From IMG/VR virus record IMGVR_UViG_3300008262_000674, positions 1 through 25,284 of that record: a stretch of DNA of 25,284 nucleotides; one strand, written 5' to 3'. Below, piece after piece: positions 5,292-23,166 of the stretch. The notes beneath the pieces were generated by a model. The model ran no database searches. It had not been told where the DNA came from and saw only the letters and a list, made by a program, of their open reading frames with translations. The DNA comes from a virus. Made by a program: the position numbers and the translations under genes. Positions within the stretch are counted from its first letter, which is position 1, and every line of letters begins with the position of its first letter.

Positions 5292-6166
5292 AAACTCTCC
5301 AATGTTAATCTGATACCTTCTTCTAGTGATACTTTGGGTTGAAAATTTGTCAATGACTTTAGTTTTGTTACGTCACCTTCTCTGCGACTAACACTGCCTT
5401 GCGGAGCATCTTCCAATACTAAATTACCAGTTATATTGCTTTGCTGACAAATTATTTCTGCTATTTCTTTAATAGAACGTTCGTCGGCGACACCGACATT
5501 CACGATTTGATTCTTGCAATTATCATTAAACAAAATATCAACTGTGGCATCTACTGCGTCACTGACGTACATAAAACTTCTAGTGTTGCTCCAACCTTTT
5601 AATGACAAGTCACCTTGTTTTGCTCTAGCAAAAAATTCTGGAATAAAATGATCTACCTGACCTGGCCCGTAGACGTTGTGATATCTAATTATTGAATAAT
5701 CTTGCTTAAATTGATGATGGGCGGCAATTACCTGTACTTCGTTGGCTATCTTACTACCACCATAACTCCATCGAGGATTTGTAACATCGTTGATTACCAA
5801 CGGCACTGTTTCGTCAGTAGGTACAGCCCAGTTGAACGTGTCTACTGCACCTGCATAACTTTCGCAAGTTCCTGTAAAGATAAAACGTTCGACCTTACCC
5901 GCATATCTTTCTAACAAATACTGTGTGGGTAGCAAGTTGTCACGAACAACATCAAATGGTCGTTGATAAAAATGCTTAGTGCCATTAAATGCTGCCAAAT
6001 GAACCACCATGTCAACATCGGGTAACAATGTTGTATCTTCGTAATTAGACAAATCAAACCCTAATTTACGGTCAGCCTCGATCACGTGATGTCCTAATTC
6101 ATTTAAAACTTTGCAAAGATGCTGGCCGATAAAGCCTCTACTACCTGTGACTAAAATTGTTTTCAT
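5288..6166 (-). CDS. NAD-dependent epimerase/dehydratase (extended SDR family)
   Basis: This is a nucleotide-sugar-modifying enzyme. The N-terminal GSRGFIG (residues 8-14) is the GxxGxxG cofactor motif. VDMVVHLAA follows at about 51-59, and the active-site pair is Tyr135 and Lys139 in SYGGSK. The usual SDR Ser/Thr falls in FTGTCES (97-103). The C-terminal RSFMYVSDAV segment is typical of UDP-glucose 4-epimerase-like and dTDP-glucose dehydratase-like enzymes; the exact substrate cannot be read from sequence. At 292 residues it is near full length. It is the first gene of the leftward pair with the dehydrogenase. A late-like GATAAATA box ends five bases before its ATG, predicting a leaderless message. 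Confidence 0.88.
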   Translation of the reverse strand: MKTILVTGSRGFIGQHLCKVLNELGHHVIEADRKLGFDLSNYEDTTLLPDVDMVVHLAAFNGTKHFYQRPFDVVRDNLLPTQYLLERYAGKVERFIFTGTCESYAGAVDTFNWAVPTDETVPLVINDVTNPRWSYGGSKIANEVQVIAAHHQFKQDYSIIRYHNVYGPGQVDHFIPEFFARAKQGDLSLKGWSNTRSFMYVSDAVDATVDILFNDNCKNQIVNVGVADERSIKEIAEIICQQSNITGNLVLEDAPQGSVSRREGDVTKLKSLTNFQPKVSLEEGIRLTLESL

Positions 6167-6171
6167 AACGT

Positions 6172-6179
6172 TATTTATC
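6172..6179 (-). promoter_or_regulatory. Late-promoter-like box, leftward (epimerase-dehydrogenase pair)
   Basis: On the minus strand the sequence reads GATAAATA, one base off the T4 late consensus TATAAATA. Exactly five bases separate it from the epimerase ATG, so the expected start site is the A of the ATG. It forms the left half of an inverted repeat (TATTTA-TCGGC-TAAATA) with the box on the other strand. Confidence 0.55.
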
Positions 6180-6180
6180 G

Positions 6181-6188
6181 GCTAAATA
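6181..6188 (+). promoter_or_regulatory. Late-promoter-like box, rightward (glycosyltransferase operon)
   Basis: GCTAAATA matches the last six bases of the T4 late -10 consensus. It lies 21 bases before the ATG at 6210, leaving a leader of about 15 bases with a weak GGA ribosome binding site. It is the mirror half of the leftward box. Confidence 0.45.
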
Positions 6189-6209
6189 TGAGCAGATAAT
6201 GGAAAACAC

Positions 6210-7001
6210 ATGAAATCTATCAAAGTTATTACCTCGCAACATAAGCCATACTATGATTCTATAGGAAAACACTGCATAACATCATTCTTAGAATTTTGGC
6301 CAAAAGAGATAAAGTTAGAACTTTATGCAGAAGAATTTGACCCTAACATCACAGACGAAAGGCTTGTTGTTAATAGAATGAATAGTGTCCTTAATACTTG
6401 GCAACAGTACATCAATTTAAGAGAAGTAACTAAAAAGACTAAGATGGCAAAATTTTGGCTCAAAAGTTTTGTTAAAATCCACGCTATGGAAAATACTTCA
6501 GAAGATATTTTGATCTGGTTAGATAGCGATGTAATAACTCATAAAAATATTAGTGTAGATTATCTCGAAAGTTTACTGCCAGAAGATCATCTACTATGCG
6601 ATATTCCTTCTTTAGGAAAATTAAAAAATAAAGAAAGCGAAACTGGATTTTGTATGATCAATACAAAACACAAAGATTTTTCTTTGTTTTTATCAAACTA
6701 TAAAAAATTCTACGAAACAAAGGAAGGTACTAGTGCGTTACCTAGAGATATAGATTCATCTGTCTGGTGGGCCGCTAGACAGCAAGTAGTATCTACAGGA
6801 ACTAAAGTAAATGGGTTAAGTTCAACAATAAACAGTCATGTTCCTTTTATGGGAACTTGTTTAAAAGATTACATGAGACACTGGGTAACAAAATCTAACA
6901 AGGCTGCATACCAAAAAAATCATGACATAACTTTCGAAGAACAAGGCATTTATAACTCAACGGTCGAAAAATCTACCGGCGAAATTATATTTAGGAAGTA
7001 A
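6210..7001 (+). CDS. GT-A-type glycosyltransferase (paralogue A)
   Basis: A predicted sugar-nucleotide-dependent glycosyltransferase of 263 residues. The metal-binding DxD motif is D105-S-D107 in LIWLDSDVIT. The N-terminus (ITSQHKPYYD...SFLEFWP...LYAEEF) shares a clear pattern with the products of 9796-10632 and 10629-11378: a Y-Y pair, then SF, then WP, then a YxED-like end. These three are paralogues. A downstream SETGFCMINT segment matches CETGFFIANK in paralogue C. It begins the rightward operon, with a one-base gap to the methyltransferase gene. It probably decorates a virion component or a host-surface glycan; the acceptor is unknown. Confidence 0.75.
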   Translation: MKSIKVITSQHKPYYDSIGKHCITSFLEFWPKEIKLELYAEEFDPNITDERLVVNRMNSVLNTWQQYINLREVTKKTKMAKFWLKSFVKIHAMENTSEDILIWLDSDVITHKNISVDYLESLLPEDHLLCDIPSLGKLKNKESETGFCMINTKHKDFSLFLSNYKKFYETKEGTSALPRDIDSSVWWAARQQVVSTGTKVNGLSSTINSHVPFMGTCLKDYMRHWVTKSNKAAYQKNHDITFEEQGIYNSTVEKSTGEIIFRK

Positions 7002-7002
7002 A

Positions 7003-7575
7003 ATGAATTCAAATTCTCAAGCACTGCAAGATATTTTTGCAATATCATTATTTGGCAACAGCGGTTCGTATATTGAGATAGGTGCAAATCGGCCTGTTAA
7101 AAACAGTAACACTTATAAATTAGAAGTTGAACATAATTGGAAAGGATATAGTATCGAATTCGACGATACGTTAAAACGATTCTGGGATAAACATCCCGAA
7201 AGAAAAAATAAAGTATATTGGGCCAACGCACTTGAATTTGATTACGCTCAAGCAAATAAGGAAAATAATTTACCTATGCATATTAATTATTTGTCTTGTG
7301 ATATCGAACCACCAGAGAATACATTTTCTGCTCTTAAAACAGTAATCGAATCTGGAATTAGTTTCGATTGTATCACGTTTGAACATGATTTATATCAGTC
7401 TAAAAAAGATTTTAATATATTAGCCATCGAGTTTTTAACTAATTATGGTTACAAAGTGGCAGTCACAGATGTTTATTATCAAACACCAAATAATTTATTT
7501 GAAACATGGTTTGTAAAAAATAATGTAAATTTTGATACATGTACTTTTACTGAATGGAAAAAGAAATTATTATGA
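7003..7575 (+). CDS. FkbM-like SAM-dependent methyltransferase
   Basis: This is a likely O-methyltransferase acting on a sugar or sugar-linked group. The N-terminal SQALQDIFA followed by GSYIEIGANRP (residues about 21-31) is the FkbM-type SAM-binding start. GYSIEFD near 48-54 is the acidic end of the second strand, and YLSCDIEPPE near 98-107 matches the usual LKIDIEG position, with a Cys-Asp variant. The length (190 residues) is typical for the short form. It sits between a glycosyltransferase and a nucleotidyltransferase, which supports capping or modification of the sugar product. Its stop overlaps the next start in ATGA. Confidence 0.75.
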   Translation: MNSNSQALQDIFAISLFGNSGSYIEIGANRPVKNSNTYKLEVEHNWKGYSIEFDDTLKRFWDKHPERKNKVYWANALEFDYAQANKENNLPMHINYLSCDIEPPENTFSALKTVIESGISFDCITFEHDLYQSKKDFNILAIEFLTNYGYKVAVTDVYYQTPNNLFETWFVKNNVNFDTCTFTEWKKKLL

Positions 7576-8318
7576 AAAAAATTGTTCTTGTCACCGGCGG
7601 ATTTGATCCCGTACACAGCGGACACATTGCTTATATAAATGCCGCACGGAAGTTGGGAGATATCTTAGTAATAGGATTGAACTCCGACGACTGGCTCACA
7701 CGTAAAAAAGGTGCACCATTTATGCCTTACATGGAACGTTCAGCAGTTCTTAGAAATATGAAAGGCGTTGACTTTGTTGTAGATTTTAATGATTCCGACG
7801 GCAGTGCCAAACATGCAATTTGGATGGTAAGACAAAGTTATCCACAAGATAAAATTATTTTTGCCAATGGCGGAGACCGAACAACTGACAACATTCCAGA
7901 AATGGATGCCGGAGATACTAATATCGAATTTGTGTTTGGAGTCGGTGGTGAAGATAAGAAAAATTCAAGTAGTTGGATCTTACAGGAATGGAAAGCACCT
8001 AAAACACACCGTCCATGGGGATATTATCGTGTACTGCATACTGTGGGAAAGAATGTCAAAGTAAAAGAACTCACAGTTGATCCTGGAAAAACATTGAGTA
8101 TGCAACGTCATCACCATCGTTCAGAATTATGGTTCGTTGCAGAAGGTACTGCGGGCAACAATTGGGAGTTTGGAGGCAGTAGTATTAAGCCTTATAAAAC
8201 AGAAGTTATCAATCCCATGGAATGGCATCAACTACACAATTCAACCGAGCAGCCGTTGAAGGTCATTGAGATACAATACGGCGCACAGTGCGAGGAAGAG
8301 GACATTGAAAGAAAATGA
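7572..8318 (+). CDS. Fusion of a cytidylyltransferase-like domain and a sugar-phosphate isomerase-type cupin
   Basis: The first 125 residues are a HIGH-type nucleotidyltransferase (GGFDPVHSGH, with HxGH at 15-18) related to the HldE/RfaE C-terminal and glycerol-3-phosphate cytidylyltransferase families. Residues about 145-240 are a cupin like the C-terminal isomerase part of ManC/type II mannose-6-phosphate isomerases: HRPWGYYRVL, metal ligands H180-H182 and E186 in QRHHHRSELWFVAEG, then EWHQLHN with H219. The fusion suggests one protein that isomerises and activates a sugar phosphate. I chose the start at 7572 because it gives an ATGA overlap and the usual MKKIVLVTGG beginning; an in-frame ATG at 7554 would add six residues. 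Confidence 0.85.
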   Translation: MKKIVLVTGGFDPVHSGHIAYINAARKLGDILVIGLNSDDWLTRKKGAPFMPYMERSAVLRNMKGVDFVVDFNDSDGSAKHAIWMVRQSYPQDKIIFANGGDRTTDNIPEMDAGDTNIEFVFGVGGEDKKNSSSWILQEWKAPKTHRPWGYYRVLHTVGKNVKVKELTVDPGKTLSMQRHHHRSELWFVAEGTAGNNWEFGGSSIKPYKTEVINPMEWHQLHNSTEQPLKVIEIQYGAQCEEEDIERK

Positions 8319-8698
8319 AAGTATTTGTAGGTTACGATGCTAGGGAAGATATTGCATACAAGGTATGCGAATATTCGATTAAAAAACATCAGCCCACGGC
8401 CGAGGTTATTCCGTTAGTACAGGATGATTTACGAGCACTAGGATTGTACTGGAGAGAAAAAGATGCATTAGCCAGTACAGATTTTTCTCTTACTCGCTTC
8501 CTAGTACCAGCACTAATGAACTATCAAGGGTGGGCAGTGTTCTGCGACTGCGACTTTTTGTGGACCGACGACATTCAAAAATTATTTGATCTTCGAGACG
8601 AAACCAAAGCAGTGATGGTGGTCAAACATGACTATACTCCAGTCGAAGGAATCAAGATGGACGGCCAGCAACAAGTATCTAGTGCCAGACGCAGTTAA
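8315..8698 (+). CDS. Glycosyltransferase, N-terminal fragment of a broken gene
   Basis: The start lies in an ATGA overlap with the fusion gene. MKVFVGYDAREDIAYKVCEYS and the DxD motif D78-C-D80 (FCDCDFLW) identify a GT-A-like enzyme of a type frequent in marine phages, distinct from the three paralogues in this window. The frame reads well to about KHDYTPVEGIKMDGQ (residues 109-123), then turns to nonsense and stops at 8698. The rest of the enzyme continues in the +1 frame from about 8673. From memory of the family, a segment of roughly 25-30 residues (a YPRKNWSS-like stretch) is also missing at the junction. Confidence 0.75.
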   Translation: MKVFVGYDAREDIAYKVCEYSIKKHQPTAEVIPLVQDDLRALGLYWREKDALASTDFSLTRFLVPALMNYQGWAVFCDCDFLWTDDIQKLFDLRDETKAVMVVKHDYTPVEGIKMDGQQQVSSARRS

Positions 8699-8906
8699 CG
8701 CAGAAACACCACAATTCCTCCATAGATTCCAGTGGATTAGAGATCATTATATTGGTGAAGTTGATAAAGAATGGAACTGGTTAGTCAACTGGTACCGGGA
8801 CGGAACACCTAAAGCAATTCACTATACTGAAGGCGGCCCATGGTTTGATAATTACAAAGACTGTGATTATGCAGATGTATGGAACAACTACAAACTCGAA
8901 CTATGA
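8628..8906 (+). CDS. Glycosyltransferase, C-terminal fragment of the same broken gene
   Basis: The meaningful sequence starts near 8673 (YLVPDAVNAETPQFLHRFQW) and runs through GEVDKEWNWLVNWY and a typical end, KAIHYTEGGPWFDNYKDCDY. The upstream residues from the ATG at 8628 are an out-of-frame reading of the N-terminal fragment, and there is no ribosome binding site, so this is not an independent gene. With the N-terminal piece it would make a protein of about 200 residues, shorter than intact relatives as I remember them. The stop overlaps the next gene in ATGA. Confidence 0.7.
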   Translation: MTILQSKESRWTASNKYLVPDAVNAETPQFLHRFQWIRDHYIGEVDKEWNWLVNWYRDGTPKAIHYTEGGPWFDNYKDCDYADVWNNYKLEL

Positions 8907-9823
8907 CCACAGTTAATGTGTACTTTGCAGGAATTCCTGCAAAAAATAGCAATATGGAAAAAGTACAAGTACTGAAAAGTTTTGCCGTGGGTGCAAAGAA
9001 AGATCCAGATGCTGTTGTTCAAGAAGTTGCAGATATGAAGTACGCTGTATCAGATGTAGCAGTAATACAAGGGTGGGTCCATGAACACAGTCAAAGTGCT
9101 CCTCATTTAAATTTTAGAAAAACAATAATTGATAATCAACGAACAGTGAAGAAAAGAGTTATCGCCATTGACAGTAACTTATTCTTATACAGAGATCCAG
9201 GTAATACTAAAACTTATCTTAGATTTAGTTTTGATGGAATCTTTCCTACCACAGGCGAATATTTTGACAATATAGTGGACAAACTTCACTGGCAAGAAAT
9301 AAAATCTAATATAGTAATTGACTTACAACCTTGGAGGACAGACGGCGACCATATTCTGATTTGTCTTCAACGTAATGGTGGTTGGAGTATGCAAGGCTTA
9401 AATGTCATGGAGTGGTGTATTAATATCATCTCAGAAATTAAAAAATATAGTGCTCGACCCATAGTTGTTAGAGCGCACCCAGGCGACAGAAATGCTAAGA
9501 ACTATTTAAAATTGCATGAACCCAATGTAACAATTAGCGAAAACAATAATATTCTAGATGATTTTAAAAATGCGTGGGCCACTATAACATACAACAGCAG
9601 TCCAGGGGTAGCCAGCGCAATAGAAGGCATTCCAGTATTTGTAACAGACCCTAATGCTAAAAATAGTCAAGCATTTAGTGTATGCAATACAGATTTAAAG
9701 AACATAGAAAATCCTACAATGACGGAAAGACAAGACTGGATAGAAAAACTAGCAATGAGTCATTGGAGTTTTCAAGATTTAGAAAGTGGAAAAGCATGGA
9801 GTCACATAAAGAAATTCCTATAA
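8903..9823 (+). CDS. Capsule-polysaccharide-synthesis-like protein (paralogue 1)
   Basis: A 306-residue protein resembling the KpsC/KpsS-like capsule synthesis fold (GT-B-like). The main signs are RPIVVRAHPGD near the middle, the following region ending in ATITYNSSPGVASAIEGIPVFVTDP, and the C-terminal ERQDWIEKLAMSHWS. The product of 11375-12214 has the same order of motifs (RPIVVRPHPR; VVNWNSGVAIQSVIAGTPIITGP; DRRQWFEKILHTEW), so they are paralogues. I chose the ATG at 8903 because it gives an ATGA overlap; an earlier in-frame ATG (8879) would add eight residues. It probably transfers a sugar onto a glycan; donor and acceptor are unknown. Confidence 0.7.
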   Translation: MTTVNVYFAGIPAKNSNMEKVQVLKSFAVGAKKDPDAVVQEVADMKYAVSDVAVIQGWVHEHSQSAPHLNFRKTIIDNQRTVKKRVIAIDSNLFLYRDPGNTKTYLRFSFDGIFPTTGEYFDNIVDKLHWQEIKSNIVIDLQPWRTDGDHILICLQRNGGWSMQGLNVMEWCINIISEIKKYSARPIVVRAHPGDRNAKNYLKLHEPNVTISENNNILDDFKNAWATITYNSSPGVASAIEGIPVFVTDPNAKNSQAFSVCNTDLKNIENPTMTERQDWIEKLAMSHWSFQDLESGKAWSHIKKFL

Positions 9824-10632
9824 GAAAATTTGCTGTATGTACGACCTTTAATGAAAAAGGATACTACAAATACGGCCAAAGAATGATACAAAGTTTTTTG
9901 GCTAATTGGCCAACTGAAGTTGTACTGTATGTCTATGCTGAAGATGTAGAAGTTAAAGAATTTGCAGAAAATTTAATTGTATTCGATTCTCATAAAACAA
10001 ATCCTCAATTAGTTAAATTTAAACAACTTTGGAAAGATGTACCCAAGGCCAACGGAGATATTTCATCCATACTTCAGTTATCTAAAAGGTCCGATGCTAA
10101 AAAGAATTTTAAATGGGACGCTGTAAAATTTTCAAATAAAGTTTATTCCGTTTTTAAATGTGCAAACGACTCGGATGTATCTGCATTATTGTGGATGGAT
10201 GCTGACATGTTTTGTCATAGTCCTATAACTTTTGAAGAAATTAAAAATTTGTGCCCAGACAATGTTGACTTGGGTTTTTTAGGAAGAACAGGCAAATATA
10301 GTGAGTGTGGACTTTATTACATGAATTTAGAATCAGAAAACGTTAAAGAATTTTTAAATGTATTTCAACATTACTATGACAATGCAGAACAGGGAATTTT
10401 TACTCTTATTGAGTGGCACGACAGTTTTGTGTTTGATGAAGCAAGAAAAAAAGTTAAACTAAAAGAATTAAATTGGAGCAACGGTCTTATTAAAGGAGAA
10501 GGGCATCCTTTAATAAATTGCCAATGGGGTGCATATTTGGATCATTTAAAAGGTGAAAGAAAAACTTTAGGTAAGAGCAAAGTCACTGACTTAATTGTCA
10601 AACGAACTGAAAAATATTGGAAAAATAAATGA
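9796..10632 (+). CDS. GT-A-type glycosyltransferase (paralogue B)
   Basis: A 278-residue relative of the 6210 and 10629 products. The N-terminus (TTFNEKGYYKYGQRMIQSFLANWP, given here in part as YYKYGQRM and SFLANWP) follows the shared pattern, and DxD is D135-A-D137 in LLWMDADMF. The frame is open much further upstream (ATG at 9682), but that part overlaps paralogue 1 of the capsule family in another frame. The ATG at 9796 gives a 28-base overlap and is preceded by a GGA-type ribosome binding site. The extra 40-residue stretch between the N-terminal motif and the DxD is longer than in the other two. Confidence 0.75.
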   Translation: MESHKEIPIRKFAVCTTFNEKGYYKYGQRMIQSFLANWPTEVVLYVYAEDVEVKEFAENLIVFDSHKTNPQLVKFKQLWKDVPKANGDISSILQLSKRSDAKKNFKWDAVKFSNKVYSVFKCANDSDVSALLWMDADMFCHSPITFEEIKNLCPDNVDLGFLGRTGKYSECGLYYMNLESENVKEFLNVFQHYYDNAEQGIFTLIEWHDSFVFDEARKKVKLKELNWSNGLIKGEGHPLINCQWGAYLDHLKGERKTLGKSKVTDLIVKRTEKYWKNK

Positions 10633-11378
10633 CAACGTTTGCATGTATAACATCTGTTAACCAACAATATTATGACCACTGCGGTCGTGCCTGTATCGAA
10701 AGTTTTCAAGCCTATTGGCCACGCGATGTAGAATTGTATGTTTATAATGAAGATATGGTGAAACCGCAGAAAGGCAAACGTGTTAGATATATTCCATGGA
10801 AACATTTGAAAGATTTTCCAACATTTGCTTCAAGAACTGAAAATAGTCACGTGATAAAGTTTGCAAAAAAAGCATACAGCATTATTCATGCGTTTGAACA
10901 ATTAAACGTAGATAGGATTATCTGGTTAGATGCTGACACAGTTACAACTAGAGAAATACCAAGGCACTTTTTAGAATTAATAGCACAAGATGATGTTCTT
11001 AGCACACACTTCGGTGTTAAACATCATTGGCCCAACGACACTGACCCGGAACGTCATAGTTTTAGTTGTGAAACAGGTTTCTTTATTGCTAATAAAAGAC
11101 ATCCTATGTTTTTACAAATGGCAAATCGGTACAAACAATATTACAATGAAGATTTAGGCTATTCGTTGAGAAGATTTTATGACGGAGAAGTTTACGGAAC
11201 AGTAGTTGCTGAAATGGAACAACAAGGTGCCAAACTTTTAGATTTAAATCGAGATCATAGTATTAAAACTCCCATGCCTCGAAGTGTAATTGCTCCGTAT
11301 ATCACGCATTTTAAAGCAGGAAGAAAAGATTCTGTAACCAATGACGAATTATTAAAAAATCTTCCAGAAGAAGAATGA
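10629..11378 (+). CDS. GT-A-type glycosyltransferase (paralogue C)
   Basis: A 249-residue enzyme beginning in an ATGA overlap with paralogue B. It shares QQYYDHCGRACIESF and YWPRDVELYVYNED with the other two, and its DxD is D101-A-D103 in IIWLDADTVT. SCETGFFIANK corresponds to SETGFCMINT of paralogue A. The C-terminus ends in THFKAGRKDS. The similarity of A, B and C along their full length points to duplication inside the cassette followed by divergence, perhaps so that each adds a successive sugar. Confidence 0.78.
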   Translation: MTTFACITSVNQQYYDHCGRACIESFQAYWPRDVELYVYNEDMVKPQKGKRVRYIPWKHLKDFPTFASRTENSHVIKFAKKAYSIIHAFEQLNVDRIIWLDADTVTTREIPRHFLELIAQDDVLSTHFGVKHHWPNDTDPERHSFSCETGFFIANKRHPMFLQMANRYKQYYNEDLGYSLRRFYDGEVYGTVVAEMEQQGAKLLDLNRDHSIKTPMPRSVIAPYITHFKAGRKDSVTNDELLKNLPEEE

Positions 11379-12214
11379 AACTTGCGTACTTCCCTAATCA
11401 GATTGCTCTTAATGCACAACCAGTGCTGAATTCCTTCTTAAATGGCTGTAAATCCTTGGGTGTAGAGTGCATTTCCAACAGTCAAGACGCGGATGCGGCA
11501 GTTATTTGGAGTGTAGTATGGATGGGACGCATGAGACAAAACCGTGCGGTCTATGAACATTACAGAAATCAGAAAAAACCGGTTTTTATACTCGAAGTAG
11601 GTAGTCTTCGAAGAAATGTCACTTGGAAAGTGGCCTTAAACAATATTAACAGTGACGGTATTTTTCCTATCGATGACGTAAACGTAACCGATAGAAAAAA
11701 TATCTTAGGAATAAACTTACAACCACCAAAAATACATCGCCAGGCTGAAATATTGATCGCTAGTCAACAGCAACACAGCCATCAGTGGAACGGAATGCCG
11801 TTGATGACCACATGGGTGGAAAAAACCATCGAAGAAATACGAAAATTTTCATCGCGTCCAATCGTAGTTCGCCCACATCCACGAAGTTCGATAAAAATGC
11901 GAAGTGTTGGCAACATTGTTGTGGATTTTCCTAGAAGAATACCAGGAGCCACAGACAACTATAACCTAGATCATAACTTTCATTGTGTGGTAAACTGGAA
12001 TAGTGGTGTAGCCATACAAAGTGTCATTGCAGGAACTCCAATAATTACGGGTCCTACCAGTCTTGCCCATGAAATTAGTGGAAAATATGAAAATATTGAG
12101 CAACTACAGTTGCCCGATAGAAGACAATGGTTTGAAAAAATATTACACACTGAGTGGTTGGTAGAAGAATTGGCACAAGGCACGCCACAAAAGATATTAT
12201 TCAATAAAATATAA
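11375..12214 (+). CDS. Capsule-polysaccharide-synthesis-like protein (paralogue 2)
   Basis: A 279-residue paralogue of the 8903-9823 product and last gene of the rightward sugar operon, starting in an ATGA overlap with glycosyltransferase C. Shared motifs are SSRPIVVRPHPR, the segment HNFHCVVNWNSGVAIQSVIAGTP and RRQWFEKILHTEW. The N-terminal third (AVIWSVVWMGRMRQN; VFILEVGSLRRN) is likely the first Rossmann-like lobe. The stop is followed after two bases by the promoter of the next operon. No terminator hairpin is visible between them. Confidence 0.7.
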   Translation: MKLAYFPNQIALNAQPVLNSFLNGCKSLGVECISNSQDADAAVIWSVVWMGRMRQNRAVYEHYRNQKKPVFILEVGSLRRNVTWKVALNNINSDGIFPIDDVNVTDRKNILGINLQPPKIHRQAEILIASQQQHSHQWNGMPLMTTWVEKTIEEIRKFSSRPIVVRPHPRSSIKMRSVGNIVVDFPRRIPGATDNYNLDHNFHCVVNWNSGVAIQSVIAGTPIITGPTSLAHEISGKYENIEQLQLPDRRQWFEKILHTEWLVEELAQGTPQKILFNKI

Positions 12215-12251: not shown

Positions 12252-13499
12252 ATGATAACTATCGAAGATACATTAGAGATTTTAGCAGGTGGTACGCCCC
12301 GACGAATTAATATTCGATTGGACACTGCTGATATACGACTGCTCACTAGTTTGAAAAAACAACTTGCTCAAAAAATACCGTTAACTGATCGGCAACTTGA
12401 CCTGAGTTTGAAGAAAATTGAAAAATATCGAGAAAATCTTGAAAAGTGCAATGTCGACGTTGACCACATACTAACTGTCAAGCCATTGAAGTGGCCACTG
12501 CGAGTTATTGATCGTACACAGAGCGTGGAGATAGAAACAGACTCTGCTACCAACAAACCAGTGATAGTGGTAAAATACGTTTTTTCTAAGAAATTCGCCG
12601 AATTTTGGGCTAAAGTTGAAGAGCATACCAGTACCTACAATCGAACAGACAAAGGAGTTAAAAAAATTCCTTATTCAGAAAAATGTCTTTACCTTGTGGT
12701 TCAAGGTCTTGTTAAAATGAATTTCACTGTCTCTAACGAGGTCCAGGAAATTTACGAAAAAATTGAAAAAATACTGGAAAATCCTGAAAATTTTGTACCT
12801 TACCTAGACTACACAGAAGACCATGTGGTCTTGAAAAATCTAAATTCCAAATGTGAAAATGCTATTGTAGAAAAATTTGGTGAAAATTATAAGTGCAGTA
12901 TATTTGAATATGTCGACTATGCAAAATCAGTAGGTGTTACCTTAAAAACACAAAATTTGATAAAATATCTCTCAGAAACTTCGCCTAGTGTATTAACTAA
13001 AAAAATTAGCATAGAACATTCTACACGCTACAGATTATATCCTGAAGACTATTCTTTAGAAGAATTATTTTCAGCAGTGAATACTTTTAACCAATGGCCC
13101 TTGGTCATTGTTGTGGAAGAAAATGAACAAGTTTTATCCATAGTTTCAAAAATGGTCAACGAATTATCAAAAATAGTTCCTAAAGAAAAAATAAATGTTT
13201 TCTTTAGATTAAAAAATGAACAAACTGAGTACGAGAAATTTAACCAATTTATCAAGGATAATGGTTTAAATAATTATATAGACTCAACAACTAAAGTAGT
13301 TTTCATATCTAGAGGCAGAATACCTAAACCTTTGTTTAAAGCCGATTGGAAACCAACAACTGCAATTATAACTAGTAATCATGACTTTGGAAGAATGGCC
13401 GCATACTTAAATGACTTTTCCACAGTTTACTATTATAATAGTTCAGTGTCATTACGTAATAGTAGGCTAAAGGGGGCCGATAAAATTGTCCAGTTGTAA
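12252..13499 (+). CDS. 415-aa protein of unknown function, coupled to UvsW
   Basis: I do not recognise this protein. The first half is rich in Lys and helices. The second half has alternating hydrophobic strands and helices: PLVIVVEEN near 282-290, KINVFFRLKNEQ, TKVVFISRGRIPKP, and TTAIITSNHDFGRMAAYL near 370-387. This resembles one or two alpha/beta (Rossmann- or RecA-like) folds, but no Walker A is present. It overlaps the uvsW start by 14 bases, so the two are translated together. That suggests a partner or regulator of the helicase. It is transcribed from its own sigma70-like promoter, probably as a leaderless message. Base composition is more AT-rich than in uvsW. Confidence 0.8.
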   Translation: MITIEDTLEILAGGTPRRINIRLDTADIRLLTSLKKQLAQKIPLTDRQLDLSLKKIEKYRENLEKCNVDVDHILTVKPLKWPLRVIDRTQSVEIETDSATNKPVIVVKYVFSKKFAEFWAKVEEHTSTYNRTDKGVKKIPYSEKCLYLVVQGLVKMNFTVSNEVQEIYEKIEKILENPENFVPYLDYTEDHVVLKNLNSKCENAIVEKFGENYKCSIFEYVDYAKSVGVTLKTQNLIKYLSETSPSVLTKKISIEHSTRYRLYPEDYSLEELFSAVNTFNQWPLVIVVEENEQVLSIVSKMVNELSKIVPKEKINVFFRLKNEQTEYEKFNQFIKDNGLNNYIDSTTKVVFISRGRIPKPLFKADWKPTTAIITSNHDFGRMAAYLNDFSTVYYYNSSVSLRNSRLKGADKIVQL

Positions 13500-14955
13500 A
13501 ATAATTATTAGAGATGAAGTTAACATTAAGATAGAAGGTCTGTCTGTTGAAGTACGACGCAAACTATCTAATGCACTTAAATTTGAATTGCCGTATGCAC
13601 GTCACATGCCACAGTACAAGTTAGGACGATGGGATGGCACCACAACTTTCTTTGGCCTTGGCGGTAATGGATATCTTAATCACTTAGATGTTATTCTGCC
13701 TATTCTTGATGACTGTGGTGTTGGCGTAGACGAAATTGAAGATCTGCGACAACCTCATAAATTTGAGTTTGCAAAAATTACAGAAAATTATTGGGCTGAC
13801 CAAGGCAAAGTTTGGCCTGCGGGACACCCAATTGCTGGGCAACCCATTGTACTTCGTGACTATCAGTTAGATGCGATTAATGGATTCATGGAACATCCAC
13901 AAGGTTTACAGGAACTAGCAACTGGAGCAGGTAAGACAATTATCACAGCAACCTTGAGCGCACTGTGCGAGCCTTACGGCCGTACATTGGTTATTGTTCC
14001 TAACAAAGGACTTGTTGTACAAACTGAAGAAGACTATGTCAACGTTGGATTAGATGTTGGTGTATACTTTGGTGATAGAAAAGATTTAAACAAGACCCAT
14101 ACTATTTGTACATGGCAAAGTCTTAACATCCTTGATAAAAAATCTAAAGGTACAACTGACACTGAAATATTAACACTAGCAGAATTATTAGACGGTGTGG
14201 TATGTGTGATTGTCGACGAAGTACACATGGCCAAGGCTGACGTTTTAAAAAATCTACTAAGTCAAAACTTATGTAATACTCCAATACGTTGGGGTCTAAC
14301 TGGAACTGTGCCCAAGGAAGATATTAACTTTCAAAGTATCCTTGCAACTATCGGTCCTGTTATTAATAGAATTTCCGCACACACTTTACAAGAAGCAGGT
14401 GTATTAAGTCAATGTCACGTGAACGTTGTGCAACTTGTTGATATTAAAGAATTTAGAAGTTATCAAGAAGAACTGAAATATCTTGTCAGTGACACTGACA
14501 GAATCGCATATCTTTCTAAATTATGTTCAAGTATTAAAGAAAGTGGTAACACTCTTATATTAGTAGATAGGTTAGATGCAGGCAAACAACTAGAGGCACA
14601 AATACCTGATAGTATTTTTATATCAGGGGAAGTAAAATTAGCAAACAGAAAAGAAGAATATGATGAAATTAGAACCAGCACTAATAAAGTTATTATTGCA
14701 ACATATGGCGTCGCGGCTGTTGGTCTTAATATTCCTAGGATCTTTAATTTGGTTCTGTTGGAACCTGGCAAGTCATTTGTACGAGTAATTCAAAGTATTG
14801 GACGCGGAATTAGAAAAGCCGAGGACAAAGACTTTGTACAAATTTGGGACATCACATCAACTTGCAAGTATGCTAAACGTCACTTAACTGTGCGTAAAAA
14901 GTTTTATAAAGAAGCCAAGTATCCGTTTACGTTAGAAAAAGTTACTTGGGAATAA
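13486..14955 (+). CDS. uvsW: UvsW superfamily 2 helicase (TTG start)
   Basis: This is an RNA/DNA helicase that unwinds R-loops and branched DNA, moving T4-type replication from origin-dependent to recombination-dependent mode. The N-terminal domain (YKLGRWDGTTTFF, about 44-56) matches the T4 UvsW FRYGNWDGR region. Helicase motifs follow: Q-like LRDYQLDAI (123-131), Walker A ATGAGKT (145-151), Walker B DEVH, motif III GLTGT, and motif VI QSIGRGIR. The length of 489 is close to T4 (503). The start is TTG: AGGGGG at 13471-13476 lies nine bases before it, and the first in-frame ATG is residue 41, which would cut into the N-terminal domain. Confidence 0.93.
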   Translation: MSSCKIIIRDEVNIKIEGLSVEVRRKLSNALKFELPYARHMPQYKLGRWDGTTTFFGLGGNGYLNHLDVILPILDDCGVGVDEIEDLRQPHKFEFAKITENYWADQGKVWPAGHPIAGQPIVLRDYQLDAINGFMEHPQGLQELATGAGKTIITATLSALCEPYGRTLVIVPNKGLVVQTEEDYVNVGLDVGVYFGDRKDLNKTHTICTWQSLNILDKKSKGTTDTEILTLAELLDGVVCVIVDEVHMAKADVLKNLLSQNLCNTPIRWGLTGTVPKEDINFQSILATIGPVINRISAHTLQEAGVLSQCHVNVVQLVDIKEFRSYQEELKYLVSDTDRIAYLSKLCSSIKESGNTLILVDRLDAGKQLEAQIPDSIFISGEVKLANRKEEYDEIRTSTNKVIIATYGVAAVGLNIPRIFNLVLLEPGKSFVRVIQSIGRGIRKAEDKDFVQIWDITSTCKYAKRHLTVRKKFYKEAKYPFTLEKVTWE

Positions 14956-15910: not shown

Positions 15911-16371
15911 GTGAAAAATTAACCATTGCAGATGAAACTGGTGCCATCGATTATCGTGCAAAGGACTTGTGGGACACGCTGACAGAAGAACAAAGAAAGC
16001 AGATAAGTTTTTATTTGCTGTTGAGATATGCTTCCGATGTAAGAACGTCTGATGTGAATTTGCAGGGTCAAGCCATTATAAAAACCAATCAATACTATAA
16101 CAAAAACTTCTTTGCGTTGAGCAAACATCCTAAACTATTGTGGTACTTGGTATGTATGACTGGTAATGGCGAGAAAGATTACTTTCACGAATATATTAAA
16201 TTTAAACCCAAAGGCGGCGATAGTAAAACTCACAAGGTACTAGAAACAATGTATCCTAATATGAAGCAAGACGAACTTGAGTTGTTGGCACTAATGACTA
16301 CTAAATCCGATATAAAAGAGTATGCCAAAAATCTTGGCATGGACGATAATGCAATTAAGAAACTTGTATGA
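15907..16371 (+). CDS. 154-aa helical protein; weak resemblance to the clamp-loader small subunit (gp62)
   Basis: The start lies in an ATGA overlap and has AAGGA upstream. The chain is mainly helical: LWDTLTEEQRKQISFYLLLRYAS near 21-45, NKNFFALSKHPKLLWYLVCMTG near 68-90, and a C-terminal LELLALMTTKSDIKEYAKNLG followed by DDNAIKKL. The order of segments recalls phage gp62 proteins, which join gp44 to form the loader of the sliding clamp, but the match is by eye only. gp44 is not nearby, which weakens the idea. It should be treated as a conserved-looking protein with an unproven replication role. Confidence 0.7.
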   Translation: MSEKLTIADETGAIDYRAKDLWDTLTEEQRKQISFYLLLRYASDVRTSDVNLQGQAIIKTNQYYNKNFFALSKHPKLLWYLVCMTGNGEKDYFHEYIKFKPKGGDSKTHKVLETMYPNMKQDELELLALMTTKSDIKEYAKNLGMDDNAIKKLV

Positions 16372-17102
16372 ACTTAGACGTGTTCCAGAAGAAAAAAGGA
16401 ATTTCAATTAAATTGACTTCCGTACAAAAACCATTTAGTTGTCGGCATTGCGGTGCAGGGTTCGTAAAAGAAAGTACCCTGGCTGTTCATATGTGTGAAC
16501 AAAAACGTAGGTTTTTAGCAAAAGATGAAAAACATGTGCTGTTGGGCTACCAAACGTATGTGAGATTTTTTCAATTAACACAAAAATCAAAAAACATCAA
16601 GACCTATGACGAGTTTGCAAAGAGCCCTTATTATAATGCATTTGTTAAATTTGGAAGTTTCCTAAGTAATGTAAATCCTTTATATCCAGATAGGTATATT
16701 GACTTTGTAGTTACTAGTGGTGTCAAGTTGGATCACTGGTGTAGGGAAGACCTTTACTATAAATATGTCTTGGATTTAATTAAAAAAGAACCTGCAGAAG
16801 TTGCCATACAACGTAGTCTTCAAACCATGATGAACTGGGCAGATGCAAACACTAGTCAGTGGGGTCACTATTTTAAATACGTAAGTCTAAATCGTGCAGT
16901 ATACGATATCAAAGATGGTAAAATTAGTCCCTGGCTGGTTCTTAATTGTAACACTGGTAGAGACATGCTAGGACGCTTAAATGACGAACAATTAAATATT
17001 ATATTTGACGTCATGGATCCCGATTATTGGAAAAACAGATTTAAAAAATATTTGCCAGATTTGAATCTTGTCAACGAAGTTGTTAAAGAAGGTAACTTGT
17101 AA
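16368..17102 (+). CDS. 244-aa protein with an N-terminal Cys-His zinc finger
   Basis: The start is an ATGA overlap with the 154-aa gene. Residues 22-42 hold CRHCGAGF followed by TLAVHMC, a C2HC or C2H2-like single zinc finger suited to nucleic acid or protein binding. The rest is helical with many aromatics (YNAFVKFGSFLSNVNPLYP; VTSGVKLDHWCREDLYYKYV) and no enzyme motif I can name. It joins the DnaE-like gene in a TAATG overlap, so the two products are probably made in similar amounts and may work together on DNA. Confidence 0.78.
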   Translation: MNLDVFQKKKGISIKLTSVQKPFSCRHCGAGFVKESTLAVHMCEQKRRFLAKDEKHVLLGYQTYVRFFQLTQKSKNIKTYDEFAKSPYYNAFVKFGSFLSNVNPLYPDRYIDFVVTSGVKLDHWCREDLYYKYVLDLIKKEPAEVAIQRSLQTMMNWADANTSQWGHYFKYVSLNRAVYDIKDGKISPWLVLNCNTGRDMLGRLNDEQLNIIFDVMDPDYWKNRFKKYLPDLNLVNEVVKEGNL

Positions 17103-17680
17103 TGCCAGATATCGACATCGACTTTGCAAACAGAGAACAGGCGTTGGAATTATTTGAATATACCACGGCTGTAAGAAACGACGGCACTGAGTTCAAAAAG
17201 CACAACACAGGAGTTTATTTTACAAGTATTCCTAGAGATGCCAGGTCTAACACTAGCACAATAGATTATAAAGAAGCAGAACAACGAGGTTATTTCAAAG
17301 TTGATTTTTTAAATGTAGGAATTTATGAAGGTGTAAAAAACGAAGAACACCTAGTTAAATTGATGATTACGGAGCCTATATGGGAACTTTTACTAGACGA
17401 CAGTTTCACGGATTTACTATTCCACGTAAATGGGCATGGGAACTTATTGAGACAGATGAAGCCTACTTCTATAGAAGAATTGGCAATGTGTCTCGCTTTA
17501 ATCCGCCCAGCGAAGAGATATCTTGTTGGCAAGACATGGACGGAGATTGGACAGGAGATCTGGACGAAACCGACCAATGATGAGTACTACTTTAAGAAGG
17601 CTCATGCAGTGGCCTACGCTCAGGCTATTGTAGTACAAATGAACTTAATATGCGACGGTCTTGCTGAGGATGTTAGTTAA
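17102..17680 (+). CDS. Miniature DnaE (Pol III alpha)-like protein, 192 aa
   Basis: The chain follows the order of the bacterial Pol III alpha catalytic core at one sixth of its length. PDIDIDFANRE (2-12) matches the PDFDVDF palm motif with the first two catalytic Asp (D5, D7). KKHNTGVYFTSIP (32-44) matches the KHAGGVVIAP-type segment. YFKVDFLNV (64-72) matches VKFDFLGL, with D68 in the place of the third catalytic Asp. LLFHVNGHGNLLRQMKPTSIEELA (105-128, in part) and ALIRPAKRYLVG match the FQLESxGM...RLxPxxFED and ALxRPGP blocks. FKKAHAVAYA (164-173) matches FNKSHAVAYA. The PHP, fingers and beta-binding parts of true DnaE are absent. T4-type phages replicate with gp43, so the role is unknown. 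Confidence 0.8.
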   Translation: MPDIDIDFANREQALELFEYTTAVRNDGTEFKKHNTGVYFTSIPRDARSNTSTIDYKEAEQRGYFKVDFLNVGIYEGVKNEEHLVKLMITEPIWELLLDDSFTDLLFHVNGHGNLLRQMKPTSIEELAMCLALIRPAKRYLVGKTWTEIGQEIWTKPTNDEYYFKKAHAVAYAQAIVVQMNLICDGLAEDVS

Positions 17681-18054
17681 CGTCTGCCCGGTTTAACTAA
17701 CTGTATCATCTTACGTTTTACTCGTTTAATAGCAATATTGTTTAAGTTGACTGTTGGACCGAATACTATATCAACGTCCTTGGTACTCATGGTTTTTATA
17801 GCATAACGATAAGGCTCCATTTCAGCCCTCATATAGATAGTTATAGGGATTGTGCGATTACTTTCCCACCACCATGCTTCTCCAAGTAGCAAAAAGTCTC
17901 TGCGCTCGTCTTCAGTCCGTAAGAGTTCGTAGTCAAATATGCTGGTAACATATTGATCTTGATTTATCACTACACCCACGTATTCTAGCCCGCCGTAGTG
18001 GACCACCGAAATAAACGGGAAATTTGCTCTAATATCTTCTGTTAGTTTTACCAT
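17677..18054 (-). CDS. 125-aa leftward phage protein of unknown function
   Basis: A lone gene on the minus strand, converging with the DnaE-like gene and sharing four bases with it. The N-terminus (TEDIRANFPFISVVHYGGLEYVGVV, in part EYVGVVINQDQYV) and LGEAWWWESNRTIPITIYM suggest a compact alpha/beta protein. The end is basic (KRVKRKMIQLVKPGRR), compatible with nucleic-acid binding. I recall similar proteins in marine T4-like phages but no function. I see no clear promoter or ribosome binding site; the rightward late box overlaps its start. Confidence 0.72.
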   Translation of the reverse strand: MVKLTEDIRANFPFISVVHYGGLEYVGVVINQDQYVTSIFDYELLRTEDERRDFLLLGEAWWWESNRTIPITIYMRAEMEPYRYAIKTMSTKDVDIVFGPTVNLNNIAIKRVKRKMIQLVKPGRR

Positions 18055-19132: not shown

Positions 19133-20113
19133 ATGGATATTGTAGACGTAATCTATTCGTACCTACCTGCTAAACGTAAACAAACACCCAGTAGTTGGAC
19201 TAAATTCAACGCGGTTTGCTGTCCGCATAATGGCAGCACATCCGACACCAGAGCCCGTGGTGGCATCATTAGAAATTCAGACGGTTGCAGTTATCATTGT
19301 TTCAACTGCGGGTTCAAAGCCAGTTATATAAATGGTCGCCATGTAACTCGCAAAATGCGACAACTATTGGCCTGGTTGGGTGCTCCGGATGATGTAGTCA
19401 ACAAAGTAGCATTAGAGGCACTTCGAATACAACAGGACACTACGTTCCTTGAACAGATCAGTTTGCCCGCGTTTGAAGACAAAGAATTACCCAAAGACAG
19501 CGTGTTACTCAGTGCTGATTCGGTCAGCGAGCACACAATACCCGCCATTGAATACGTCTACAGTCGCGGTCTTACCTTGGATGATTTTGACTTCTATGTC
19601 AGCAAAGCCATGCCTGATAGATTGATTATTCCTTTTATATTTGAAAATAGGATAGTTGGTTATACTGCTAGAAAACTCAGCGAAGGCAAGCCAAAATATA
19701 TCAGCGAGCAGACACCCGGGTATGTGTTCAATCTGGATGCTCAAACACATATCAAATGGAATGACGAACGATATGTGTTGATTGTAGAAGGTCCCATGGA
19801 TGCATTAAGCACAGGCGGTGTCGCTATACTGGGTGCAGAAATCATGGACAAGCAGGCCATGTTGATTAACAAATTGGGAATGATACCTGTGTTGGTGCCT
19901 GATAGAGACACAGACGGATTGCGAAGTATCGAACAAGCACTGAACAATAAATGGAAAGTAAGTTTACCAAACTGGCATTCGGATATTAAAGACGCCAACG
20001 ATGCTGTGCGTAAATATGGTAGACTATGGACATTAAAAAGTATCATAGACGGAATCGAAACTAACGAATTAAAAGTAAAATTAAGGATGAAACAATGGGT
20101 TTCTTTAAAATAA
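19133..20113 (+). CDS. 61: gp61 DNA primase
   Basis: This makes the RNA primers for lagging-strand synthesis and pairs with the gp41 helicase to form the primosome. The N-terminal zinc site is CCPHN (C30, H32) with YHCFNCGF (C56, C59). The Toprim domain follows, with VEGPMDALS near 216-224 and PDRDTDG near 257-263 as metal-binding motifs, and IIPFIFENRIVGYTAR before them. The length (326) is close to T4 gp61 (342). The start lies ten bases after the structural gene. The stop overlaps a 36-aa gene, and gp41 follows after the carbamoyltransferase. Confidence 0.92.
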   Translation: MDIVDVIYSYLPAKRKQTPSSWTKFNAVCCPHNGSTSDTRARGGIIRNSDGCSYHCFNCGFKASYINGRHVTRKMRQLLAWLGAPDDVVNKVALEALRIQQDTTFLEQISLPAFEDKELPKDSVLLSADSVSEHTIPAIEYVYSRGLTLDDFDFYVSKAMPDRLIIPFIFENRIVGYTARKLSEGKPKYISEQTPGYVFNLDAQTHIKWNDERYVLIVEGPMDALSTGGVAILGAEIMDKQAMLINKLGMIPVLVPDRDTDGLRSIEQALNNKWKVSLPNWHSDIKDANDAVRKYGRLWTLKSIIDGIETNELKVKLRMKQWVSLK

Positions 20114-20205
20114 TAGTAAGATGGTTCGCTGAAAAGCGCAAACAACGTAGACTTAAAAAACGTCTAGAAGAATTACGTAAACGGGATCCTTTCATATACA
20201 AATGA
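20095..20205 (+). CDS. 36-aa highly basic protein
   Basis: This small gene starts inside the end of the primase gene in another frame. A good ribosome binding site (AAGGA at 20084-20088) lies just upstream, and its stop forms an ATGA overlap with the carbamoyltransferase. The protein begins MGFFKIIVRWFAEKRKQR and has Arg and Lys at nearly half the remaining positions, as in an amphipathic helix with a short hydrophobic start. Similar tiny proteins next to primase occur, from memory, in cyanophages. It could bind nucleic acid or a membrane surface. Confidence 0.68.
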   Translation: MGFFKIIVRWFAEKRKQRRLKKRLEELRKRDPFIYK

Positions 20206-21680
20206 TTACATGGGGAATAAGTGCCAATAGTCATGACGCGGCTATTGCAGTTTTTAAAGATCGTCAACTAGTGTATGCCAGTCACAGTGAAAGATACAGC
20301 CGTGTCAAAAATGACGGTGACTTGGATCCGGTCATGGTCAATGAACTTAAGAAAAAATGGGGAGAACCAGATCGTGTGGTTTGGTATGAAAAGCCCTATG
20401 CTAAAACATTTCGACAGTTTTTTGCTGGACAGGGATGGCGATGGGGCGAAAACAATATTAAGAAATATCTCAAAAAATTTAATATTACCGCACCCATTAC
20501 TTATAAATGGCATCACGAAAGTCATGCTGCCGCAGGATTTTACACCAGCGGATTTGAATCAGCAACTGTGGTGGTCATTGATGCCATAGGTGAATTTGAA
20601 TCCATCAGTATATGGCAAGGCGAGGGTCGGCAATTGAAAAAACTGTGGAGTCAAAACTTTCCTGACAGCGTGGGACTATGGTACAGTGCCATGACTGATA
20701 GGATTGGATTGAAGCCCAACGAAGAAGAATACATTCTCATGGGCATGGCGGCTTTAGGAGATCCTCAGCGGCACAGCGGTAACATCATTGCTGACTTTAT
20801 AAGTTTTTATCATCCCAGTGAATCAGGAATTCGATTTAAACAAAATTTACACAAAGGCTGTAAAAATTGGCGACCCGAGTTAAACACTGAGCAGGATCGT
20901 TATGACATTGCCGCTGGCACACAACATGTCTACGAATTGATACTGCATAAGATTTTACAGGATGCTGTCAGATTAGGTGGTGGCAATGAGAATCTTGTAC
21001 TCATGGGCGGCTGTGCTCTTAACTGTGTGGCCAATAGTGAAGCATTTACATATTTTAAAAATGTTTGGATCATGCCCAATCCTGGCGATGCTGGCAGTGC
21101 AGTTGGAGCAGTGCTGGCAGATTGGCGGGAACATATTGCTTGGCCAGGTGCATATCTTGGTCATGACATGGGATACCATCATTCTAACATAGAAATTGTT
21201 GATCACTTGTTGACCCATAAGTTTTGCGGATTGGCCAGAGGTCGGGCTGAGTATGGTCCAAGAAGTCTAGGCAATCGCAGTTTGATTGCTGATCCCCGAG
21301 GCCCTGATGTCAAAGCCCTGCTTAACACAATTAAAAAGAGAGAAAAGTTTAGACCCTTTGCTCCCAGTGTGTTGGCAGAATACGCTGACGAAATATTCGA
21401 AATGCCCACCAAGTTGACACCATACATGCAGTATGCAGTTCGATGTCGACAGCCCGATTTGTATCCTGCTATTGTGCATTTTGACAACACCAGCAGAGTT
21501 CAAACAGTCACACAGGAAGACAATCCAGAATTTCATGCACTGTTGACCATGTGGCACAAAAAAACTGGATGTCCCATGTTGGTCAACACCAGTTTGAACA
21601 TCAAGGGCGAACCCATAGTCAACACTCATGAGGATGCCAATAGATGGGAAGCAAAATACGGAGTACCCATATATCGTTGA
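20202..21680 (+). CDS. NodU/CmcH-family carbamoyltransferase
   Basis: Members transfer a carbamoyl group from carbamoyl phosphate to a sugar or antibiotic hydroxyl through a carbamoyl-adenylate. GISANSHDAAIAVF near the start, HHESHAAAGFYTSGF (about 106-120) with the metal-binding His, LMGGCALNCVANS, and EYGPRSLGNRSLIADPR are the characteristic blocks of the Kae1-like part. KREKFRPFAPSVL and PMLVNTSLNIKGEPI belong to the C-terminal domain. The chain is 492 residues while most members have 550-600, and it ends soon after the last block with an unusual NRWEAKYGVPIYR, so the tail is short. It sits between primase and helicase genes but may serve the sugar cassette. Confidence 0.9.
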   Translation: MITWGISANSHDAAIAVFKDRQLVYASHSERYSRVKNDGDLDPVMVNELKKKWGEPDRVVWYEKPYAKTFRQFFAGQGWRWGENNIKKYLKKFNITAPITYKWHHESHAAAGFYTSGFESATVVVIDAIGEFESISIWQGEGRQLKKLWSQNFPDSVGLWYSAMTDRIGLKPNEEEYILMGMAALGDPQRHSGNIIADFISFYHPSESGIRFKQNLHKGCKNWRPELNTEQDRYDIAAGTQHVYELILHKILQDAVRLGGGNENLVLMGGCALNCVANSEAFTYFKNVWIMPNPGDAGSAVGAVLADWREHIAWPGAYLGHDMGYHHSNIEIVDHLLTHKFCGLARGRAEYGPRSLGNRSLIADPRGPDVKALLNTIKKREKFRPFAPSVLAEYADEIFEMPTKLTPYMQYAVRCRQPDLYPAIVHFDNTSRVQTVTQEDNPEFHALLTMWHKKTGCPMLVNTSLNIKGEPIVNTHEDANRWEAKYGVPIYR

Positions 21681-21711: not shown

Positions 21712-23166
21712 ATGACAACTAGACAAAACACAGACTACGGATTTGATATACAAAAACTTTATTTAGAAATGATGCTGAGTGATGCTGGCACATTTGTACG
21801 ATGCCAAAGTATTTTTGATCATACATTATTCGATAGACGCTTGCAGGATTCAGCAGAATTTATCAACAACTATGTCACAGAGCACAACGCTCTGCCCACA
21901 TTTGACATGGTGCAGGCAGCAACCAAAACAGAATTTAAAGATCCTGGTAGCATGAAAGATGAGCACTATGATTGGCTCATGACTGAATTTGAAACGTTTA
22001 TTAGACACAAAGGTCTTGAACGTGCTATCTTAAAATCAGCAGACTTGTTGGAAGAAGGCAACTATGGTCCTGTGGAAGACATGATCAAGCAGGCTGTGCA
22101 AGTGGGCTTGCAAAAAGACATGGGCACAGACTATTGGTTGGATCCCAAAGGCAGACTGCTGGGATTGAAAGATAAAAACGGACAGGTCAAAACTGGCTGG
22201 GAGACTGTGGACAAGCGATTGTTTGGCGGAATGAACAGAGGCGAACTGAATATCTTTGCTGGTGGTTCTGGTGCAGGTAAGAGTTTGTTCTTGGCCAATC
22301 TAGGTGTGAACTGGGCACTGCAAGGATTGAACGTTATCTACTTGACCTTGGAATTGAGCGAAGCACTTGTGAGTATGCGTGTGGATTCCATGACCACTGG
22401 CATCAGCACCAAAGAGATTTTCAAAGATCTTGACGGTGTTGAAATGAAGGTCAAGATGATTGGCAAGAAGTCGGGCGCATTTCAGATCAAGTACATGCCC
22501 AGTGGTAAAACAACCAATGACATTCGTGCTTATTTGAAAGAGTATGAAATCAAAATGGGTCATAAGGTTGACGTACTGCTGGTAGACTACATGGACTTGT
22601 TGTTGCCTATCAGCAAGAAGATTAGTGCAGAAAACTTGTTTGTCAAAGACAAGTATGTGGCTGAAGAACTGCGTAACTTGGCCATGGAAAAACAATGTGT
22701 GTTCGTCACAGCGGCACAGTTGAATCGTGGGGCTGTGGAAGAAGTTGAGTTTGATCACAGTCACATTTCGGGTGGACTCAGTAAGATTCAGACAGCAGAC
22801 AACGTGTTTGGTATCTTTACCAGCAGAGCCATGCGTGAACGTGGCAAGTATCAGATACAGTTGATGAAGACTCGTAGTAGTTCGGGTGTGGGTATGAAGA
22901 TTGACCTGGACTTTGACATTGACACACTGCGTATCACTGACCCAGGATTAGATGGACAAACGGATGAGTACCGTCCCAAGAGTTCAGCAATTTTGGACAC
23001 TATCAAACGTCAAAACTCTGCGCCAGCCACAGTCACTGATCCCGACACAGGCGAAGTGATAGTGGATCCTGCGGTGGGCGTGGCCTTGCCCAAGGTGCAG
23101 GCCAAAACTGACAGTACTAGACTGCGTCAGTTTTTAAACAACCTCAATGAAGATTCTGAGATTTGA
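21712..23166 (+). CDS. 41: gp41 replicative DNA helicase
   Basis: This is the DnaB-type hexameric helicase that unwinds the fork 5' to 3' and works with gp61. An N-terminal helical domain (1-130) resembles the DnaB collar. The RecA-like motor has Walker A GGSGAGKS (184-191), a Walker B region in VDVLLVDYMDLLLP, and an AAQLNRGAV motif near the sensor position. The length of 484 is close to T4 (475). The C-terminal 55 residues form a Pro/Asp-rich linker and a charged end (LRQFLNNLNEDSEI). The codon choice is more GC-rich than in uvsX. It ends in a 23-base convergent overlap with the leftward gene, and its transcript appears leaderless. Confidence 0.93.
   Translation: MTTRQNTDYGFDIQKLYLEMMLSDAGTFVRCQSIFDHTLFDRRLQDSAEFINNYVTEHNALPTFDMVQAATKTEFKDPGSMKDEHYDWLMTEFETFIRHKGLERAILKSADLLEEGNYGPVEDMIKQAVQVGLQKDMGTDYWLDPKGRLLGLKDKNGQVKTGWETVDKRLFGGMNRGELNIFAGGSGAGKSLFLANLGVNWALQGLNVIYLTLELSEALVSMRVDSMTTGISTKEIFKDLDGVEMKVKMIGKKSGAFQIKYMPSGKTTNDIRAYLKEYEIKMGHKVDVLLVDYMDLLLPISKKISAENLFVKDKYVAEELRNLAMEKQCVFVTAAQLNRGAVEEVEFDHSHISGGLSKIQTADNVFGIFTSRAMRERGKYQIQLMKTRSSSGVGMKIDLDFDIDTLRITDPGLDGQTDEYRPKSSAILDTIKRQNSAPATVTDPDTGEVIVDPAVGVALPKVQAKTDSTRLRQFLNNLNEDSEI

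Follow-up and report, generated by a model that had tools for sequence, protein, structure and literature searches.

The open reading frame at positions 17,102 to 17,680 (+ strand) of the window, the whole 25,284-nucleotide stretch of viral DNA analyzed here, is genuine, and its 192-amino-acid product is a true homologue of DnaE, the alpha subunit of bacterial DNA polymerase III (Pol III). The protein is assigned to phrog_11778 as the C-terminal half (below, the C-half) of a minimal Pol III alpha that is split in two. The reading that we favor, with a probability of roughly 80%, is that it forms one subunit of a two-subunit Pol III core, lacking both the thumb and the PHP domain, that works beside a family B replicase.

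The frame opens with an ATG at position 17,102 and its stop codon ends at 17,680, giving a translation that runs from MPDIDIDF to AEDVS. The ATG and the preceding gene's stop codon overlap (TAATG), and 5' of the ATG the frame stays open for just 6 bases, so that the protein begins at MPDIDIDF, with two residues ahead of the first catalytic aspartate. This start is common to nearly all of the IMG/VR homologues listed, and the C-halves of reference phages carry between 0 and about 20 additional residues ahead of it. A frameshift or a fusion with the upstream gene was considered and rejected, because the frame is closed just before the ATG and the upstream protein, which has a zinc-finger-like N-terminus, belongs to an unrelated family.

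The C-half matches PHROG 11778, labeled "DNA polymerase", with an E-value of 7.9e-67 (residues 3-184 on profile positions 8-192 of 197), and is 37-54% identical to the reference phage members of that family. It also matches phrog_405, a DNA polymerase profile of 1190 positions (E 4.5e-9). Searches with the single sequence were weak: the match to Pfam DNA_pol3_finger was under the cut-off (E 0.0028), and a phmmer search of the PDB returned nothing significant, so the homology is settled by profiles only. When a profile of 42 C-half homologues was aligned with one of 27 DnaE proteins (E. coli and 26 from GTDB contigs), the local E-value was 1e-9, compared with 0.03 or worse for the controls, a reversed profile and eight column shuffles. 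These matches and controls argue that the DnaE motifs of the C-half, which the first-pass annotation had named and which do occur in the order that it gave, are not a product of chance. The profile search proposed there therefore does lead to DnaE, at an identity of about 22%. The structural comparison proposed alongside it points the same way: the predicted model is confident (pLDDT 88.7), and its ten best Foldseek matches in the PDB are all Pol III alpha, with TM-scores that are modest (0.38-0.47 by query length).

The profile alignment places the active site residue by residue. In the DIDID motif (17,108-17,122, + strand), D3, D5 and D7 correspond to E. coli DnaE D401, D403 and D405, with D3 and D5 as the metal ligands. 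K66 and D68 (17,297-17,305, +), invariant in 91 of 91 loci, correspond to K553 and D555, D68 being the third catalytic aspartate. The first-pass annotation was right that three catalytic aspartates are present, and the residues that it singled out (D5, D7 and D68) are indeed all invariant in the 91 loci; its choice of D5 and D7 as the leading pair was wrong, however, since the triad is D3, D5 and D68. Its remark that the spacing is far shorter than in E. coli holds, with 63 residues between D5 and D68 against 152 between D403 and D555. K33-H34 (17,198-17,203, +) aligns with K510-H511, at the end of the deleted thumb region, and two finger motifs follow: R135-P136 (17,504-17,509, +), equivalent to R639-P640, and FKKAHAVAYA (17,591-17,620, +), equivalent to FNKSHSAAYA, in which K166, H168 and Y172 stand for K758, H760 and Y764. 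Positions invariant in the 91 homologous C-half loci are D3, D5, D7, H34, G37, K66, D68, R135, P136, H168 and Y172.

The architecture of DnaE is only partly represented in this chain, which covers DnaE from residue 399 onward. It has no PHP domain, no N-terminal palm with the GS motif and nothing of the regions C-terminal to the fingers, and it also lacks most of the stretch from D405 to K510, within which, on the established structure of DnaE, the thumb falls. The PHP and clamp-binding parts had correctly been reported missing; the fingers, thought to be missing too, are in fact partly kept, because residues 94-173 or so map to DnaE 597-765 as a shortened finger domain, much of the original having been lost.

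The missing half of the palm is encoded by a second gene. A phrog_405 search of 11 reference genomes that carry the C-half found, in all 11, a second short open reading frame matching DnaE just before the break. These N-half proteins are about 170-180 amino acids long, align to DnaE residues ~272-393 and have a C-terminal segment of the type GVGRGSSVASYVLFLIG...EFLK. They carry GRGSS, a motif that stays invariant. They score above the Pfam DNA_pol3_alpha cut-off, with coverage confined to positions ~18-95 of 260, and the predicted model (pLDDT 92.6) finds its best PDB fold matches in a list led by Pol III alpha. The two halves match separate parts of the phrog_405 profile. Because the N-half stops at about E. 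coli residue 393 and the C-half picks up at 399, the cut lies inside a single five-residue loop of the palm, which connects the GS helix to the catalytic strand. Each of the 80 IMG/VR N-half reading frames that were fetched terminates 0-6 residues past this point, and none of them continues into a C-half.

These results bear directly on whether the 192-residue protein could be an active minimal polymerase or nucleotidyltransferase by itself. It does keep all three catalytic aspartates, invariant across the 91 loci, and the confidence with which it is predicted to fold could be taken in favor of that idea. Yet it begins two residues before the first of these aspartates and lacks the GRGS helix, and a separate protein containing exactly the missing part is encoded in 11 of 11 reference genomes. 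Unaided activity is therefore very improbable, and the earlier suggestion that this single protein is the smallest C-family core has to be given up; the interpretation in the first-pass annotation is thus partly supported.

The two halves occur together but their genes are far apart. Members of the C-half family occur in at least 559 IMG/VR loci and in 63 phage records, most of them jumbo-phage genomes, arguing that it is a common, if putative, piece of phage replication. The first-pass annotation was right to guess that other phages carry unlabeled relatives; PHROGs and the Phosso record already label the C-half a DNA polymerase. Among 60 C-half phage records listed, 57 also appear among the 60 N-half rows listed; one more has an N-half by the phrog_405 search, and two are absent from the listing. 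Eleven IMG/VR contigs of at least 180 kb were tested, comprising seven C-half contigs reached via the N-half, three reached via the C-half and one, of 191 kb, with the N-half only; the N-half was thus present in 10 of 10 that hold a C-half. Shorter contigs often contain one half, as expected of fragments. In the reference phages the halves lie from ~15 to over 200 kb apart, and tblastn with the window protein found no C-half in the 80 N-half loci with flanks of up to 5 kb on either side. Likewise, no N-half was found within the 25-kb window, which is a fragment showing the C-half alone. A GTDB scan found no standalone C-half in bacteria among the matches listed, all of which lay inside DnaE reading frames of 904-1549 amino acids at 21-30% identity. 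One 117,666-base IMG/VR contig contains the N-half twice with equal scores (22,502-23,005, + strand, and 94,662-95,165, - strand), and these mirror-image positions suggest that the assembly is an inverted duplication.

The surroundings of the C-half gene are conserved as well. The upstream gene (16,368-17,102, +), a member of phrog_11058 with the zinc-finger-like N-terminus mentioned above, has a stop codon that overlaps the C-half start, and phrog_11058 lies directly upstream in 86 of 88 related loci with enough flank. The convergent gene downstream (17,677-18,054, -), a member of phrog_11637, overlaps the C-half gene at its 3' end; that family is downstream in 81 of 84 related loci, and all 85 matches to it lie on the opposite strand. 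The same replication and recombination cluster includes a UvsW-like helicase (13,486-14,955, +), a gp61-like DNA primase (19,133-20,113, +) and a gp41/DnaB-like replicative helicase (21,712-23,166, +). UvsW is upstream of the C-half in 71 of 79 loci and the gp61 primase further downstream in 64 of 66, so the window shares the syntenic cluster of the family (phrog_11058, phrog_11637, UvsW, primase and helicase). Gene order downstream of the C-half differs in XacN1. In RaK2, Atu_ph07 and XacN1, a few genes separate the N-half gene from the clamp loader gene gp44; in Phosso the N-half gene is close to that of an AAA-ATPase.

The C-half is under purifying selection, with dN/dS values against the window gene of 0.04-0.21 where measurable and a median of 0.11 over 58 close pairs. 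These values and the invariant residues led us to reject a pseudogene. The related idea that the gene is a decaying remnant of a captured dnaE could appeal to its length, far short of DnaE, and to its covering part of DnaE only. That idea already conflicts with what selection and conservation show: besides the low dN/dS and the invariant active-site residues, a single break point recurs in the 80 N-half loci, and length and synteny are conserved. It retains almost no credibility.

Several other features of the window deserve mention in their own right. The gene for the gp32-like single-strand binding protein (phrog_1192) is interrupted, falling into two overlapping frames at 1,554-2,156 and 2,110-2,454 (+), the first matching profile positions 2-191 and the second 213-308, by a frameshift or an assembly error. 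A phrog_28018 gene is similarly split over overlapping frames at 8,315-8,698 and 8,628-8,906 (+; profile positions 3-152 and 169-241), by a frameshift or a sequence error. Between uvsY and the uvsW region, positions 4,500-12,214 hold a cassette of sugar-nucleotide genes (UDP-glucose/GDP-mannose dehydrogenase, epimerase and cytidylyltransferase/mannose-phosphate isomerase) and other, unassigned reading frames, at the place where RaK2-like phages have a DnaQ-like exonuclease gene. A NodU/Nol-like carbamoyltransferase gene (phrog_1601, E 2.2e-101; 20,202-21,680, +) separates the genes for the gp61 primase and the gp41 helicase, which adjoin each other in RaK2 and relatives.

In Pol beta-like folds, the GS helix grips the incoming nucleotide by its triphosphate and the aspartate triad binds the metals. 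The C-half would supply the three metal-binding aspartates together with the shortened finger domain, and the N-half (~175 amino acids, encoded elsewhere) would supply the Gly-Ser (GRGSS) helix. The halves would then dock into one palm, an arrangement suggested by the position of the break, in the loop that leads from the Gly-Ser helix to the catalytic strand. With the helix and the triad on different chains, neither half should be active alone. With no PHP, thumb or clamp-binding domain, the pair should have low processivity, and its job would most likely be a limited one beside the family B replicase, such as gap filling, repair or the synthesis of one strand.

A family B polymerase is encoded in 11 of 11 reference genomes; the window, as a fragment, is not expected to hold one. 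The presence of such a replicase could be read to mean that the halves form a complex that is no polymerase, one that binds DNA, nucleotides or replisome proteins as a Pol III-derived factor assisting or regulating the family B enzyme. The loss of the thumb, PHP and clamp-binding parts would fit such a role, as would the proximity of the genes to those for primase, helicase and clamp loader. A pure binder, however, would not need D3, D5, D68, K66 and GRGSS, all of which are invariant, and we regard this alternative as unlikely. The two-subunit polymerase core, which we prefer, has difficulties of its own: loss of the thumb puts the pair's grip on primer-template DNA in question, and the modest Foldseek scores, the low identity to DnaE and the absence of the N-half from the window also count against it. 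On balance we lean, with some reserve, toward an active C-family polymerase of ~370 residues, the smallest of its family, made of two proteins of ~175-190 amino acids that build the palm from two chains, with neither PHP domain nor classic thumb, beside a family B replicase. An active pair would set the lower limit of what a bacterial-type replicative polymerase requires and would offer a natural polymerase in two parts, active only once these are mixed; its phages would then run two unrelated polymerases together.

A split enzyme of this kind was already reported in 2021, and the window gene adds another member. In jumbo phages of group 2.2, Iyer et al. (PMC7824862) described a minimal Pol III alpha specific to phages, divided into an N-terminal NTP-binding protein and a C-terminal Mg2+- and template-binding protein encoded by distant genes; the pair accompanies a family B polymerase and was proposed to aid one-strand synthesis or repair. 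We found no accession for the C-terminal unit in the main text of that paper, and infer that this unit is phrog_11778 from how the paper describes it, from the label in PHROGs and from the Phosso record. The Phosso record names both pieces DnaE-like and labels the C-half a DNA polymerase. A truncated N-half was noted in earlier reports on CBB and Atu_ph07, and a 2022 survey (PMC9123017) found PF07733 in about half of one marine jumbo phage group, matches that may partly represent this N-half. No biochemical or genetic data on the split pair were found in the open-access literature. What is new here is the exact position of the break and its invariance, the corrected assignment of the aspartates, the figures for how often the two halves occur together and the finding that the N-half gene is linked to that of the clamp loader.

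Compared with known systems, the window protein agrees in substance with the split Pol III alpha of PMC7824862: the N/C cut, the distant genes and the family B polymerase recur in its relatives, it matches phrog_11778, and the one distinction is that a metagenomic fragment shows the C-half alone. Full-length phage DnaE (phrog_405; for example in group 3.2 jumbo phages, PMC7824862) has the same palm and finger motifs but is a single long chain with a PHP domain and serves as the main polymerase, whereas the core here is short and split. Bacterial DnaE shares, in the same order, the aspartate triad, the KH and K-D motifs and the finger motifs RP and K-H-Y; it has 1160 residues against 192, and the C-half lacks its PHP domain, thumb, GS half of the palm and C-terminal domains and has shortened fingers. 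The family B polymerase gp43 of phage T4 has an unrelated palm fold and is not homologous to Pol III alpha, yet a polymerase of that family coexists with the C-half in every one of the reference genomes.
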